64,000 nt of DNA, from positions 1 through 64,000 of the forward strand of contig JAIBAP010000024.1 in assembly GCA_019695115.1 (NCBI GenBank), read 5' to 3'. The translations under genes and the position numbers were made by a program. The notes beneath the pieces are model-generated. The model was not told the DNA's origin, did no database searches, and worked only from the letters and a program-made list of their open reading frames with translations. The stretch comes from Caldilineales bacterium (lineage in GTDB: Bacteria; Chloroflexota; Anaerolineae; J102). Of this stretch, positions 11,729 to 56,108 are shown piece after piece (position 1 is the stretch's first letter; every line of letters starts with the position of its first letter).

Positions 11729-13108
11729 CTACGCCAGCAGCAGGTGCGGTTTCTCGACCAATTGCACCAGGCGCTGCAAAAAGCGCGCCGCCGGCCCGCC
11801 ATCCACCAGCCGGTGATCGAAGGTCAGGCTGAGCCAGACCATCTGCCGGGGTTCGACGTGGTCGCCGGCCCAGACCGGCTGCGTCTTGATCCGGCCCAGG
11901 CCGAGGATGGCGGTCTCGGGCAGGTTGATGATGGGGGTGAAGGCATCGACGCCGAACATGCCCAGGTTGGTGAGGGTAAAGGTGCCGCCGCGCAGTTCGT
12001 CGGGCGTGCATTGCCCGGCGCGGGCGCGCTCGGCCAGCGCCTTTGTTTCGGCGGCGATCTGCGCCAGCCCTTTCCCGGCCACATCCCTCACCACTGGCGC
12101 CAGCAGCCCCCGGTCGGTGTCCACAGCCAGACCGATGTCGATGCGTCGCCACAGTTGGATGCCGTCGGCTGCGAGCGAAGCATTGAGGCGGGGGTGCTCG
12201 GCCAGCGCCTTCGCTAGAATCACGAACAACAGGTCGTTGTACGAGACCTCGACGCCATCGGCCTGCAAATCCTGCCGCAATCCCACCAGCGCCGTGGCGT
12301 CGGCCTCGGCGGTGAGGGTGACGGGGGCCGTTTGGGTGTGGCTGCGTGCCATGCGCTCGGCGATGAGGCTGCGGATGCCGGTGAAGGGGAGGGTTGGAGA
12401 TTGGAGATTGGTTATTGGAGATTGGTTATTGGAGATTTGAGCGACAGCGGCTTCTACATCCTCGCGGGTGATGCGGCCGCTCGGCCCGGCGCCGGCCAGG
12501 GTGCGCCAGTCGATGCCAGCTTCCTCGGCCACGCGCTTCGCCACCGGCGTAATCATCACATCGTTAGCCTCCGACCTCCGTCCACCGTCCTCTGTTCTCT
12601 GTCCTCCGACCTCCGACCTCTGCAAAAACGCCCGCACATCCCGCTCGATAATCGCCCCTTCCGGTCCGGTGGGCGCGACGGCGGCCAGTGGCACGCCCTC
12701 CCGTGCGGCCAGCACCCGCGCGCGGGGGGAGGCGAAGAGGCGGGGAGGGGGTGACACGGTGACAGGGTGAGGGGGTGACACGGTGACAGGGTTCGCCGCC
12801 GGTAACGCTCTCTGCGAGTCATGCGCCACTATAGGCTTGCCACCTGCCCCCTGCCCCCTGCCCCCTGCCCCCTCCTCCCCAATCACGGCAATCGCGCTGA
12901 GCACGGCCACTTCCTGGCCGGCGCCGGCCGTGACGCCGGACAGGATGCCGCTGGCGGGCGCTTCGACCTCGAGATTGGCCTTGTCGGTCTCGACCTCGAA
13001 CAGCGGCTCGCCCTGGCGCACGGCCTCGCCCTCCCGTTTGAGCCAGCGCACAAAGGTGAGGGTATCGACGGTTTGGCCGAGGGGCGGGACAAGGACTTGC
13101 GTGGACAT
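11729..13108 (-). CDS. 2-oxoacid dehydrogenase E2 (dihydrolipoyl acyltransferase)
   Basis: A 459-residue E2. Lipoyl domain 1-78 has the lipoylated Lys43 in ETDKANL. There are two peripheral subunit-binding domains (126-162 and 186-222), and a catalytic domain (241-459) with His432 and Asp436 in FDHRLVDGG. It transfers the acyl group from E1 to CoA and forms the complex core. The linkers are unusual: residues 79-125, 163-183 and 223-240 are encoded by short tandem DNA words identical in style to the window's intergenic repeats. It ends the E1-alpha/E1-beta/E2 set; no E3 is present. Pyruvate, acetoin and branched-chain complexes all fit. Confidence 0.92.
   Translation of the reverse strand: MSTQVLVPPLGQTVDTLTFVRWLKREGEAVRQGEPLFEVETDKANLEVEAPASGILSGVTAGAGQEVAVLSAIAVIGEEGAGGRGQGAGGKPIVAHDSQRALPAANPVTVSPPHPVTVSPPPRLFASPRARVLAAREGVPLAAVAPTGPEGAIIERDVRAFLQRSEVGGQRTEDGGRRSEANDVMITPVAKRVAEEAGIDWRTLAGAGPSGRITREDVEAAVAQISNNQSPITNLQSPTLPFTGIRSLIAERMARSHTQTAPVTLTAEADATALVGLRQDLQADGVEVSYNDLLFVILAKALAEHPRLNASLAADGIQLWRRIDIGLAVDTDRGLLAPVVRDVAGKGLAQIAAETKALAERARAGQCTPDELRGGTFTLTNLGMFGVDAFTPIINLPETAILGLGRIKTQPVWAGDHVEPRQMVWLSLTFDHRLVDGGPAARFLQRLVQLVEKPHLLLA
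12393..12878. repeat. Four word-repeat tracts inside the E2 coding region
   Basis: Tracts at 12393-12438 (GGAGATTGGTTATT words), 12570-12622 (CCGACCTC and related words), 12751-12792 (GGTGACAC/GGTGACAGG) and 12840-12878 (CCCCCTG units) each encode an interdomain linker in frame. The first belongs to the family also found at 14188, 21130, 43237 and 61651 outside genes. Confidence 0.85.
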
Positions 13109-13125: not shown

Positions 13126-13168
13126 AGCCGTTGATTGTTGACTGTTGATTGTTGATTGTTGACTGTTA
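13126..13168. repeat. GTTGATTGTTGACT word repeat at the E1-beta stop
   Basis: Repeats of TGTTGATTGTTGACTG fill nearly all of the gap between E2 and E1-beta and, read on the minus strand, supply the TAA stop codon of E1-beta (13166-13168). The same words occur at 19066-19098 after the TIM-barrel gene. Confidence 0.8.
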
Positions 13169-14179
13169 GAACAGCGCCTTCACCGCCTCAACCACCCGCG
13201 CCGCCGACGGTACATAGAACTGCTCCATCACCGGTGCGAAGGGCGGGGGCACGTCGGGGGCGGAGACGCGTTTGACCGGCGCATCGAGATACCAGAACGC
13301 TTCCTCGGCGACGATGGCGGCGATCTCGCCCGCCCAACCGCCAGTGAGGTTGTCTTCTTCGACCACCACCAGCCGCCCGGTCTTGCGCACCGATTCCAGG
13401 ATGAGTTCTTTGTCCAGCGGCACGAGTGTGCGCGGGTCGATGACCTCGGCCTCGATGCCGTCTTTCGCCAATTCCTCGGCGGCGGCCAGCGCCCTGTACA
13501 TGGTCAGCAGCTTGCCGACAATGGTCACATCCCGGCCCTCCCGCCGCACGATGCCCTGGCCGATGGGCACGACATAATCTTCGTCGGGCACTTCGCCCAC
13601 TGGGCTGAGCGCGCCTTTCTCGGCGCGAGCGCCTTTGCTGCCGTACAGCAGCTTGTGCTCGAACATGATCACGGGATTGTCGTCGCGCACGGCAGCCTTC
13701 AGCAAGCCTTTGGCGTCGTAGGCGGTGGCCGGGGCCACGACTTTGAGGCCGGGGATGTGGCAGAAGAAGGCTTCCAGGCTTTGGGCGTGCTGCGAGCCGC
13801 GGGCGGTGGCTCCCACCGGCGCCCGCATCACCAACGGCACTTTCACCGTCCCGCCCGACATGTACGTCATCTTGGCGGCCTGGTTGGCGAGCTGGTCCAT
13901 GGCCAGGAAGAGGAAGTCGGCGTATTGCACATCGGCGATGGGTCGCAGCCCGGCCAGGGCCGCGCCGACGGCGATGCCGGTCAGCCCCAGTTCAGAGATG
14001 GGCGTGTCGAGCACCCGTTCGTGGCCGAACTCGTCGGACAGGCCCAGGGTGACGGTGAAGGCGCCGCCGAAGCCGCCGGGGATGCCAATGTCTTCACCGA
14101 TGCAGAAGACGGTGGGGTCGCGGCGCATTTCTTCACGGATGCCCTGGCGGATGGCTTCGGCGATGGAGAGGTGGGGCAT
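13166..14179 (-). CDS. 2-oxoacid dehydrogenase E1 component, beta subunit
   Basis: A 337-residue transketolase-like protein with the family order of motifs: FCIGEDIG, DTPISELGL (the ThDP-activating Glu), ARGSQHAQSLEAFF, then the C-terminal domain with EVIDPRTLVPLD and VVEEDNLTGGWAGEI. It pairs with E1-alpha to decarboxylate a 2-oxoacid and pass the acyl group to lipoyl-E2. E2 follows 57 bases downstream. E1-alpha lies upstream but is separated by about 1.1 kb holding genes of another origin. Confidence 0.92.
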   Translation of the reverse strand: MPHLSIAEAIRQGIREEMRRDPTVFCIGEDIGIPGGFGGAFTVTLGLSDEFGHERVLDTPISELGLTGIAVGAALAGLRPIADVQYADFLFLAMDQLANQAAKMTYMSGGTVKVPLVMRAPVGATARGSQHAQSLEAFFCHIPGLKVVAPATAYDAKGLLKAAVRDDNPVIMFEHKLLYGSKGARAEKGALSPVGEVPDEDYVVPIGQGIVRREGRDVTIVGKLLTMYRALAAAEELAKDGIEAEVIDPRTLVPLDKELILESVRKTGRLVVVEEDNLTGGWAGEIAAIVAEEAFWYLDAPVKRVSAPDVPPPFAPVMEQFYVPSAARVVEAVKALF

Positions 14180-14187
14180 GGTGGTCG

Positions 14188-14240
14188 TTGGAGAGTGGGG
14201 ATTGGAGATTGGTTATTGGAGATTGGTGATTGGTTATTGC
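14188..14240. repeat. GGAGATTGGTTATT word repeat
   Basis: Tandem words GGAGATTGG and TTATTGG upstream of E1-beta. The -35 box proposed for hicB (TTGGTG, 14223-14228, 18 bases before TACAAT at 14247-14252) is built from the repeat. Confidence 0.75.
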
Positions 14241-14317
14241 AGAGGGTACAATAGCGTGTCAGTGGGCGATGGCTGGCTCATGGGTCAGCCAGTTGATACG
14301 CCCGCAGGAGAAAGGTC

Positions 14318-15333: not shown

Positions 15334-16323
15334 TCAGTCATCAAAGAATACGTGGTTCAAGGCATCCTCCGGCCTGGGCGACGGGCTGGCTTCGGCGAAA
15401 GCCACGGCATCATCGATAGCGGCGGTGACTTCCTGATCGATGGCGGCCAGGGTGGCCTCGGTCGCCTGGCCGGAGGCGAGGAGGTGGGAGGCCAGGCGGG
15501 GGAGGGGGTCGCGCCCGGCCCAGTCGGCTTCCTCTTCTTTCGTGCGATAGGTGCGGGGGTCGCTGCGCGAGTGGCCGACCAGCCGGTAGGTCTTGCATTC
15601 CAGCAGCGTCGGCCCGCCGCCCGACCGGGCGCGTTCGACCGCCCGGCCCGCCGCCTCGTACACCGCCAGCACGTCGTTGCCATCCACGATCTCGCCGGGG
15701 ATGCCATAGGCCGAGGCCCGGCTGGCTACATCTTCGACCTTGAATACCCACGAAACCGGCGTCGAGGCGGCGTAGAGATTGTTCTCGCAGACGAAGACGA
15801 CGGGCAGTTGCCAGATGGCCGCCATGTTCAGCGTCTCGTGAAAGGCGCCCTCGTTGCTCGCGCCTTCGCCGAAGAAACTGACCGCCACGCGGCCGTTGCC
15901 CAGCCGCTTGCTGGCCAGGGCGGCGCCGGCGGCGATGGGGATGCCGCCGCCGACAATGGCAATGGCCGGGAACATGCCCACATTGACATCGCCCACGTGC
16001 ATCGACCCGCCCTTGCCCCGGCAGCAGCCTGTGTCCTTGGCGAACAGCTCGGCCATGATCGCCCGCAGCGCCACGCCTTTGGCGATGGCATGGCCGTGTG
16101 GCCGGTGTGTGCTGGCGACATAATCATCGGTGTGCAGGTGGGCGCAAACGCCCACGGCCACCGCTTCCTGGCCGATATACAGGTGCAGCGTCGAGGGGAT
16201 GCGGCCCTGCATGTACAGGTAGTTGCAGCGCTCCTCGAAACGGCGGATGGTGAGCATCTGGCCGTAAAGGTGAAGGGGGTCGAGTGATGAATGGGACTCG
16301 GGCATAGGGGAATGCTTCTCCAT
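15334..16323 (-). CDS. 2-oxoacid dehydrogenase E1 component, alpha subunit
   Basis: A 329-residue ThDP enzyme with HRPHGHAIAKG, the CRGKGGSMH segment, and the ThDP motif GEGASNEGAFHETLNMAA...ENNLYA. The phosphorylation-loop region TYRLVGHSRSDPRTYRTKEE is typical of pyruvate and acetoin dehydrogenases. Start choice is open: ATG 16323 gives 329 residues; an in-frame ATG at 16305 is preceded by GGAG from the first codons and would fit a ribosome site better. It works with E1-beta and E2 downstream. Confidence 0.92.
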   Translation of the reverse strand: MEKHSPMPESHSSLDPLHLYGQMLTIRRFEERCNYLYMQGRIPSTLHLYIGQEAVAVGVCAHLHTDDYVASTHRPHGHAIAKGVALRAIMAELFAKDTGCCRGKGGSMHVGDVNVGMFPAIAIVGGGIPIAAGAALASKRLGNGRVAVSFFGEGASNEGAFHETLNMAAIWQLPVVFVCENNLYAASTPVSWVFKVEDVASRASAYGIPGEIVDGNDVLAVYEAAGRAVERARSGGGPTLLECKTYRLVGHSRSDPRTYRTKEEEADWAGRDPLPRLASHLLASGQATEATLAAIDQEVTAAIDDAVAFAEASPSPRPEDALNHVFFDD

Positions 16324-17606: not shown

Positions 17607-18962
17607 TCAGATGTTCTTCGGCCCGAACTTGGGGTGGAACTCGCGATTGAGATAGCCCCAGCGCGTGTGCGGGCGCTTGCGATAGCCCCAGGTTTCCAGG
17701 GCGGCGCGCAGTTCGGGCTGTGTCTTGGCCGCTTCGGGCAGCGGGATGCCGGCCAGGGCGGCGTCGATGGCCTGGCGGAAGGCCTTCGCCCCGGCGGTGT
17801 AGCCCATGGGGTGGCCCAGCATGCCGCCGCCGGCCATGAAGATCATGTCGATGCCGTGCTCGGCCAGCATCGGTTCGACAGCGCCCGGATGCACGCCCGC
17901 GCCCGGCATCGGCCAGATCGGTTTGAGGTGGTAGAACGGGGCTAGCATGGTTTGGGCGGTGCGATAGCATTCTTCCATCGACGCCACCGGGATGCTCGAC
18001 CAGATGCCCGGCGTCAGCATCATATCGCCGCCGCACAGCCGGATGATCTTCGATAGTACGGGGAAGTTGATGGTGGGGAGCAGGGCCAGCATGTGGGAGA
18101 CGTGCAGCAGGATGGGCGAGGTGATCTGCGGGTCTTCGGCCAGCACGCGCAACATCGACGGCCCGGTCGAGTAGGCCAGCAGCAGGCCGGAAGCGCCGTT
18201 GCGGCAGGCGCGCCGGGCCTTTTCCTGCACCCGATCGACCTCATCGGTGATGCTGACCATGTACAGCATCTTTTTGCCGGTCTCTTTTTCGGCCCTTTCC
18301 AGCGCCCGCTGCACCGCTTCCAGCCGGGCGTCGAACGGGCAATTGTCCAGCTCGCTGCACATCTCGTCGTCTTTGCACAGGTCGGCTCCGCCCAAGGCAG
18401 TCTGATACACCTGCGCCGCTGTTTCTTCGGGCGTCATGCCCATCTTGGGCTTGATGATGTGCAATACCAGCGGGCGGTCGTACACCCCCAGCAGATCGCG
18501 AATCCCCGGCACGCCGAACTTCGGCCCCTTGAACTTTTCCGCCAGCTTCTTGGGGATGTAGAGGTCGAGCAGCCGCATTTTGGTGGGGAAGGCGAAGCAG
18601 TTGCCGGCGATGGACAGCAGCAGCATGGGCACGTTGGTGTTCACATCCCAGGCGGCGGTGGAGAAGCCAAGCTGGATGACGGCTTTCTTGGTGCCGCGCG
18701 GGGCCGGGATTTCGTAGTAGCCCAGCACTTTGCTGCTCAGTTTCTCGCGCAGCGCCGGCGTTTCTTCGCTGACCTCCATCCAACTGGCGGTCGAGCCTTC
18801 CAGCGCCAGCCGCTGCACCTGTTCGAGGTGGTCGATGAAGTCAGCGTCGATTTCATCCACTGTGTCTTCGAGATAGTAGGTGCCAACGATGAAGTTGTCG
18901 TCGGGGACGATGCTTTCCCACATGTAGTTGAACATGTGTGGGTCGAAGAGTTGTTTGATCAT
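17607..18962 (-). CDS. RuBisCO-like protein (form IV)
   Basis: A 451-residue RuBisCO large-subunit homologue. It keeps the KPK pair (Lys171, Lys173), the metal/carbamate set in ADLCKDDE (Lys197, Asp199, Glu200), His287 and the GGG phosphate loop (378-380) followed by GHP. It lacks the loop-6 lysine (RLCGGDMMLTPG) and the Arg after His287, so it should not fix CO2. RLPs with these residues enolise or decarboxylate sugar phosphates in methionine salvage or in apiose-type pathways. The neighbours (aldolase relative, TIM-barrel isomerase, GntR) point to sugar catabolism. No Shine-Dalgarno is seen before the ATG, which abuts a GGAG-type repeat. Confidence 0.9.
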   Translation of the reverse strand: MIKQLFDPHMFNYMWESIVPDDNFIVGTYYLEDTVDEIDADFIDHLEQVQRLALEGSTASWMEVSEETPALREKLSSKVLGYYEIPAPRGTKKAVIQLGFSTAAWDVNTNVPMLLLSIAGNCFAFPTKMRLLDLYIPKKLAEKFKGPKFGVPGIRDLLGVYDRPLVLHIIKPKMGMTPEETAAQVYQTALGGADLCKDDEMCSELDNCPFDARLEAVQRALERAEKETGKKMLYMVSITDEVDRVQEKARRACRNGASGLLLAYSTGPSMLRVLAEDPQITSPILLHVSHMLALLPTINFPVLSKIIRLCGGDMMLTPGIWSSIPVASMEECYRTAQTMLAPFYHLKPIWPMPGAGVHPGAVEPMLAEHGIDMIFMAGGGMLGHPMGYTAGAKAFRQAIDAALAGIPLPEAAKTQPELRAALETWGYRKRPHTRWGYLNREFHPKFGPKNI

Positions 18963-19033
18963 GGGGAGGAGGGAGGAGGGAGTAAGGAGTAGAGAGTAAG
19001 GAGTAGGGAGTAGGGAGTAGGGAGTAGGGAGTG
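18963..19033. repeat. GGGAGTA word repeat upstream of the RuBisCO-like gene
   Basis: Runs of AGGGAGTAGGGAGTAGGG and AAGGAGTAGAGAG fill the region directly before the start codon. On the minus strand the tract is pyrimidine-rich, so it offers no ribosome binding site. Confidence 0.85.
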
Positions 19034-55677: not shown

Positions 55678-56100
55678 GGGCGTGGTCTCCACGCCCTTAC
55701 ATCGGGCGTGGAATACATCGGGCGTGGAATACATCGGGCGTGGAATACATCGGGCGTGGAATACATCGGGCGTGGAGACCACGCCCCTACGACCGGGCGT
55801 GGAATACATCGGGCGTGGAATACATCGGGCGTGGAATACATTGGGCGTGGAGACATCGGGCGTGGAGACCACGCCCCTACGACCGGGCGTGGAATACATT
55901 GGGCGTGGAGACCACGCCCCTACGACCGGGCGTGGAATACATTGGGCGTGGAATACATCGGGCGTGGAGACCACGCCCCTACGACCGGGCGTGGAATACA
56001 TTGGGCGTGGAGACATCGGGCGTGGAGACATCGGGCGTGGAAACCACGCCCCTACATCGGGCGTGGATACATCGGGCGTGGAGACCACGCCCCTACGACC
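55678..56100. repeat. REP-like satellite of GGGCGTGG units
   Basis: About 22 copies of GGGCGTGG occur in 423 bp, mostly as 16-bp units (GGAATACATCGGGCGT). They are interrupted at least six times by a hairpin unit in which GGGCGTGG and CCACGCCC enclose three bases and which continues as CCTACGACC. The block fills the space between the wax ester synthase and the convergent lipoprotein gene. Open frames across it are products of its periodicity. Confidence 0.92.
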
Positions 56101-56108
56101 GGGGGCGA

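Follow-up and report, generated by a model that had tools for sequence, protein, structure and literature searches.

Short tandem repeat arrays form the interdomain linkers of a dihydrolipoyl acyltransferase gene in a Chloroflexota genome

Background

Short repeats that lie mainly between bacterial genes can also be found within them. Rickettsia palindromic elements are an intergenic repeat family whose members also occur within protein-coding genes, in frame and at sites that tolerate them; they are palindromic, far longer than 7-nt units and unlike the varied short tandem words considered here. Closer in form are heptanucleotide repeats, which are known from cyanobacteria, Xanthomonas, Beggiatoaceae and Geobacter and are sometimes located within genes (PMC4692102, PMC4679880, PMC2700814). 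The cyanobacterial STRR heptanucleotides and the G-rich heptamers of Nostoc and Xanthomonas resemble the arrays described below in being degenerate 7-nt units that are dispersed, mostly intergenic and coding-poor, and differ in their phyla and apparently in their words; the term 'linker' is absent from that paper (PMC4692102). TAACTGA repeats of Beggiatoaceae, cyanobacteria and Bacteroidetes are likewise mostly intergenic heptamer arrays and vary between strains by indels in 7-nt steps, but consist of one word that in Beggiatoaceae mostly lies directly upstream of start codons (PMC4679880). The few copies inside open reading frames are found chiefly at the protein periphery, mainly in hypothetical proteins and, unlike the enzymes discussed here, in no recurrent protein family (PMC4679880).

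Two further systems are relevant. The heptanucleotide element family of Geobacter metallireducens is a defined element that was interpreted as a regulatory RNA or site, and the available text of that report does not mention interdomain linkers (PMC2700814). Within the Chloroflexota, the (GATAGRA)n satellites of Chloroflexus aurantiacus are also dispersed heptamers, thought to have been transposed through the genome; they differ in forming a single word family, and placement in protein linkers is not described in the portion of that source available (PMC6749651). Heptamers within bacterial genes are thus already known, and what seems undescribed is their recurrent use as linkers of dihydrolipoyl acyltransferases (E2); we found no description of heptamer-built E2 linkers in the open-access literature.

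Four tandem arrays coincide with the linkers of an E2 gene

The window analyzed here, a 64,000-nt stretch of DNA from a Caldilineales bacterium (contig JAIBAP010000024.1), is contig C24 of genome G000 (5.99 Mb, 135 contigs). It contains a predicted E2 gene together with two E1 genes and two intergenic heptamer arrays:

11729..13108, minus strand: predicted E2 gene (dihydrolipoyl acyltransferase), 459 aa, DHRLVDG motif in the catalytic domain (Pfam, AlphaFold)
13130..13167, unstranded: intergenic GTTGATT heptamers, in the gap separating E1-beta from E2 (TRF)
13166..14179, minus strand: E1-beta gene, in the same operon as E2 (PF02779, PF02780)
14188..14243, unstranded: intergenic heptamers (TTGGAGA/TTGGTTA) belonging to the linker-3 family, immediately upstream of the E1-beta start (TRF)
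15334..16323, minus strand: E1-alpha gene, on the same strand as E2 (PF00676)

The E2 protein matches Pfam profiles PF00364, PF02817 (in two stretches) and PF00198, which place a lipoyl domain at residues 4-76, E3-binding stretches at about 123-162 and at 185-219, and the catalytic domain at 239-458. The lipoyl, E3-binding and catalytic domains expected of an E2 all appear intact, and the E1-alpha and E1-beta genes are close by, both upstream on the same strand. Its closest named relatives are from Chloroflexota (Anaerolineae) metagenome-assembled genomes (MAGs).

Four short tandem arrays lie within this gene, all in frame and without stops:

12838..12873, minus strand: linker 1a, heptamer array with five copies of AGGGGGC on the coding strand (CCCCCTG), encoding EGAGGRGQGAGGK, residues 79-91 (TRF)
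12745..12792, minus strand: linker 1b, a perfectly duplicated 24-mer of the GGTGACAC type with a sub-period of 8 nt, encoding NPVTVSPPHPVTVSPPP, residues 106-122 (TRF)
12568..12622, minus strand: linker 2, degenerate heptamers GGTCGGA/GGACAGA/GGACGGT, encoding QRSEVGGQRTEDGGRRSEA, residues 163-181 (TRF)
12394..12441, minus strand: linker 3, two-word heptamers CTCCAAT/AACCAAT (TTGGAGA/TTGGTTA), encoding AQISNNQSPITNLQSPT, residues 223-239 (TRF)

An AlphaFold model based on 11 homologues was mostly confident over the domains; its pLDDT fell below 50 only at 81-122, 167-182 and 227-236, and these three segments coincide with the arrays at residues 79-91, 106-122, 163-181 and 223-239. Because the arrays match the low-confidence segments between Pfam domains, we equate them with the linkers. 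The original prediction, made from the letters alone, that the E2 linkers are encoded by tandem words was therefore confirmed by TRF at these positions and for all three interdomain linkers; linker 1 holds two arrays, so that there are four arrays rather than one per linker.

With a period of 7 nt, the reading frame changes from one unit to the next, so that neighbouring units encode different residues. We measured identity at a lag of 7 nt against synonymous-codon shuffles, in which the peptide was held fixed and codons were redrawn according to the genome's usage over 5,000 rounds. Observed identity was 0.91 for linker 1a (shuffle mean 0.49), 0.78 for linker 2 (0.46) and 0.75 for linker 3 (0.39), and 0 of 5,000 shuffles reached the observed value in any of the three. 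The 7-nt period of linkers 1a, 2 and 3 thus exceeds what the peptide demands, and these are repeats at the level of DNA and not of the peptide. Linker 1b had no lag-7 enrichment by the same shuffle; with its period of 8/24 it is a genuine repeat, though no heptamer.

The avoidance of stops had also been put forward as part of the case for repeat-derived linkers. It holds for all four arrays, and in linker 3 the sole stop-free frame of the coding strand is the one actually used. As evidence it is weak, and we rejected it: intergenic arrays are equally open, with stop-free frames making up 67% (0.67) in non-genic arrays and 69% (0.69) in other intergenic DNA.

Heptamer arrays are abundant and mainly intergenic

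Repeats were surveyed in a sample of G000 taken by region (1.65 Mb in total). Period 7 was the commonest period, with 371 TRF rows, far above neighbouring non-codon periods; merging neighbours within 3 nt gave 322 period-7 arrays. Genes, as called with a home-made gene caller, made up 86% of the sample, yet period-7 arrays were nearly all intergenic (281 intergenic, 43 gene-edge and 12 inside genes in the per-period tally). Two of the in-gene calls, C5:137751 and C1:153574, are doubtful, as the gene start or reading frame looks wrong. Array position was only slightly biased relative to start or stop codons. The words form a limited vocabulary in which AATCTCC and AACCAAT, both used in linker 3, rank third and fourth.

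These arrays resemble STRR repeats in having many dispersed and mainly intergenic copies, and three of the four E2 arrays share the head-to-tail arrangement of 7-nt units. Linker 1b has neither the 7-nt period nor a dispersed family. Array density varied greatly between genomes: the Chloroflexaceae MAG G163 (L270-L289) had about 89 period-7 arrays in 169 kb, whereas G000 had 322 in 1.65 Mb and the congener G001 (L290-L309) about 7 in 277 kb.

Dispersed relatives of three of the four linker arrays

To relate the linkers to these repeats we initially counted shared 14-mers. Linker 1a has 14-mers in common with 13 other sites, 12 of them intergenic; as a control this measure proved uninformative, random coding segments also having many 14-mers in common, and longer exact patterns and word vocabularies were applied after it failed. 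For linker 3, about 34 places in the genome, grouped among the matches listed, carry its exact 27-mer CCAATAACCAATCTCCAATAACCAATC, which also recurs with one mismatch at 14207-14233, inside the intergenic array upstream of E1-beta (14188-14243). In linker 1a, every position uses words that occur in at least two non-genic arrays. For linker 2, related 24-mers (≤3 mismatches) were located at about a dozen unlinked places against zero control matches, although just 4% of its positions use words from at least two sampled non-genic arrays. Within a genome, vocabulary matching succeeds for linkers 1a and 3 as well as for several G163 arrays; it fails for linker 2 and for L058 d, L262 c and L262 d, and the G163 and G001 samples are small.

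Three of the four E2 linker arrays therefore belong to dispersed families, and the suggestion that the linkers are built in the style of the intergenic repeats stands for linkers 1a, 2 and 3. It does not extend to the GGTGACAC array of linker 1b, for which genome searches returned no dispersed relative; since its 24-mer is private to the E2 gene, linker 1b looks like a local duplication. The repeats had further been called mobile, a claim that found no support: neither a strain-level empty site, nor a target-site duplication, nor a mobilising enzyme was found.

Orthologous linkers are short or differently worded

We aligned the E2 with those of relatives, as had been proposed. Identity was 61-64% to the nearest orthologues in the alignment; for G033 it was 59%, and for a portion of G001 65%. 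Linkers of close orthologues are short or worded differently, and some are ordinary Ala/Pro linkers. Linker 2 is just a few residues long in L051, L052 and G033, is longer and Ala-rich in G001, and spans 22 residues here; it exceeds that of the closest orthologues outside the genus by roughly one array length. In some orthologues linker 3 is at least as long as here, which points to replacement of an earlier linker by its array instead of simple insertion. The proposal of linker evolution through repeat insertion or expansion in four families thus retains three dispersed families and a lengthened linker 2, and loses the private 24-mer duplication.

Linker arrays recur in E2 genes and in other proteins

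Period-7 or period-8 arrays are held by 12 of the 1,217 predicted genes in the 1.65-Mb sample of G000, among them four E2 genes: that of the window and those on C10, C12 and C17, the last a weak, Pro/Ala-rich case. With the window gene left out and C17 scored as non-positive, such arrays were present in 2 of 5 other E2 genes versus 8 of 1,211 other genes (P = 6e-4); the E2 regions of C12, C17, C44 and C77 had been fetched on purpose, and the two groups were sampled unlike, so the rate per gene was compared. For period 7 alone the figures were 1 of 5 versus 5 of 1,210 (P = 0.024). Similar excesses were obtained in G001 (2 of 9 E2 genes versus 1 of 205 others; P = 0.005) and in G163 (2 of 4 versus 9 of 128; P = 0.035), the latter a genome picked for its array-bearing E2, which was excluded from the test. 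Gene counts behind these last three P values (0.024, 0.005 and 0.035) were set by hand with doubtful calls omitted, and the E2 counts are small.

A wider set of 172 E2 reading frames from Chloroflexota and other phyla gave a consistent picture. At lag 7, six exceeded z = 5, and no sequence did so at lags 5, 8, 10, 11 or 13; at z > 4 there were two at lag 8, one being the window gene. At a shuffle P < 0.01, 10 of 106 Chloroflexota sequences and 1 of 66 others were positive at lag 7, against three and one, respectively, for the control lags 5, 10, 11 and 13 combined. Of the 366 array residues in the 11 lag-7-positive sequences, just 9 fall within a domain. The Chloroflexaceae MAG Prado088 has three positive E2 genes, with words including CAGTTGG, TCAATCG and GACCGGA; others are found in G220 (one gene, GACTCCC), on C10 of G000 and in G001 (two genes). 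Equivalent E2 linkers hence carry different words in different genomes, and linker arrays arose independently in E2-type enzymes of other genomes.

Two further cases in G000 extend the pattern. The E2 gene on C12 (L195) has octamer arrays in both linkers: linker 1 contains about 59 nt of the AAGTAGAC type, and the linker ahead of the catalytic domain contains 183 nt of CCGTCCCT; the 11-mer AGGTAGACAAG of its linker-1 array has 13 intergenic occurrences in the sample. On C10, an E2-like protein (L040 849-1889) has lipoyl and E3-binding domains, a linker consisting of a 113-nt heptamer array, and a reduced catalytic region without the DHRxxDG motif; to judge from its sequence, it is possibly an inactive E2. 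TRF matches in the Pro/Ala-rich linkers of L191, L232 and L127 were classed as cases of codon composition. Separately, the C77 E2 (L194) has a linker with a 24-nt duplication, GQAQGRPIGQAQGRP, and the E2 linkers of L016 and L262 contain the repeat-like peptides PSLSEGEG and PALSLSKG. These three suggest additional repeat families in E2 linkers; a pattern search for their repeat-like peptides gave unspecific matches.

A search for the same words at other linkers of the proteome had been proposed, and words of these kinds were found at some of them. A PTS fusion protein of G000 has a heptamer array of the linker-3 word at residues 139-151, between its EIIA-man (3-119) and HPr (160-242) domains. 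A UbiD decarboxylase (L041 12331-13740, on C11) carries two heptamer arrays at residues 44-73, inside the N-terminal domain profile match, apparently as a loop insertion. Nine predicted genes of G163 contain 16 arrays in total. Several of these are placed between Pfam domains or outside them (in a tricorn-like protease, a GH43 protein, a low-molecular-weight (LMW) phosphatase and a tRNA methyltransferase), and one is a loop insertion in the C-terminal domain of a PLP decarboxylase. Since arrays are placed at linkers and loops of these other proteins, E2 is not unique but follows a general rule to an extreme degree.

Origin of the linker arrays

We consider it likely that the E2 linkers are translated dispersed repeats, which spread or expanded blindly and were kept where a disordered, stop-free peptide is tolerated. 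Arrival would have been by insertion or expansion of dispersed repeats, and retention by tolerance rather than benefit. Hundreds of 7-nt arrays, and some 8-nt arrays, would arise or spread regardless of coding. Selection would remove nearly all of those within genes, as units of 7 nt disrupt the frame and the encoded peptide breaks the fold, leaving survivors only at the linkers, loops and termini of coding DNA. As E2 linkers need flexibility, solubility and a maintained frame, an array could persist there if its total length is in frame and free of stops, and the three linkers of one protein would collect several. Successive rounds, along with local duplication of the 24-mer kind, may then have replaced or lengthened the ancestral linkers.

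The main competing account is local slippage, in which arrays grew in place from chance seeds and a genome-wide bias toward 7 nt produced similar words. The private 24-mer of linker 1b is what such growth predicts, as are perfect adjacent copies within arrays and the rarity of linker-2 words among sampled intergenic arrays. Yet the exact two-word 27-mer of linker 3 at about 33 other places could hardly be repeated independently and argues for copying, and linker 2 is an array-sized block at a position where the closest orthologues outside the genus have almost no linker; we regard slippage as possible, on the unlikely side. Selection for the peptide itself, with linker composition aiding the complex and DNA periodicity as a by-product, would fit the recurrence of arrays in E2 genes of several lineages and the fact that E2 linkers are generally flexible and rich in small or polar residues. 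The encoded peptides are wholly unlike between arrays and genomes, however (G/R-rich, N/Q/S/P-rich or R/E-rich), some orthologues do with ordinary Ala/Pro linkers, and the DNA signal lies above the peptide requirement, which makes this account improbable.

Phase variation, by which gain or loss of units in the 7-nt arrays would switch E2 off and on, draws on a unit length that is not divisible by three and on the roughly four consecutive perfect copies in linker 1a. We judge it highly improbable: most arrays are degenerate, a single change of copy number in any of them would disable a central metabolic enzyme, the 24-mer array would change length without a frameshift, and no variant turned up. 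An artefact of assembly or gene calling deserves a thought, as the genomes are fragmented and several are metagenome assemblies, but it carries next to no weight given an intact 459-aa reading frame with a conserved active-site motif, arrays that lie well within a 72-kb contig, and the same pattern in genomes of other sources.

Beyond the derivation of these linkers from dispersed repeats, we tentatively raise the idea that heptamer arrays spread as units by an undescribed mechanism, and that disordered linkers, those of E2 foremost, may be their regular landing sites in coding DNA. If so, linker sequence in Chloroflexota would turn over at the pace of intergenic repeats. New disordered linkers evolve so quickly that their origin can seldom be traced. 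In this gene the DNA itself reveals the source, because repeats at the codon level do not leave the 7-nt signature present in its coding sequence. E2 linkers could also serve as a natural assay of repeat spread, in that arrays are tolerated there and the flanking conserved domains fix orthologous positions, and they open a practical way into the bacterial heptanucleotide repeats, which have long lacked an explanation.

Other repeats in the window

Further repeats were noted elsewhere in the window. A CRISPR-like array at 137-1556 has a 37-nt repeat, GCTTCACCGAACTGAATCCCGAACGCGGGATTGAAAC, with a period of about 72 nt. At 55698-56103 there is a complex tandem region of CGGGCGTGGA(ATACAT) units with sub-periods of 16, 59, 73 and 102. 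A RuBisCO-large-subunit-like protein, so judged by eye, is encoded at 17607-18962, and a GGGAGTA heptamer array (18964-19032) begins 2 nt upstream of its start codon.
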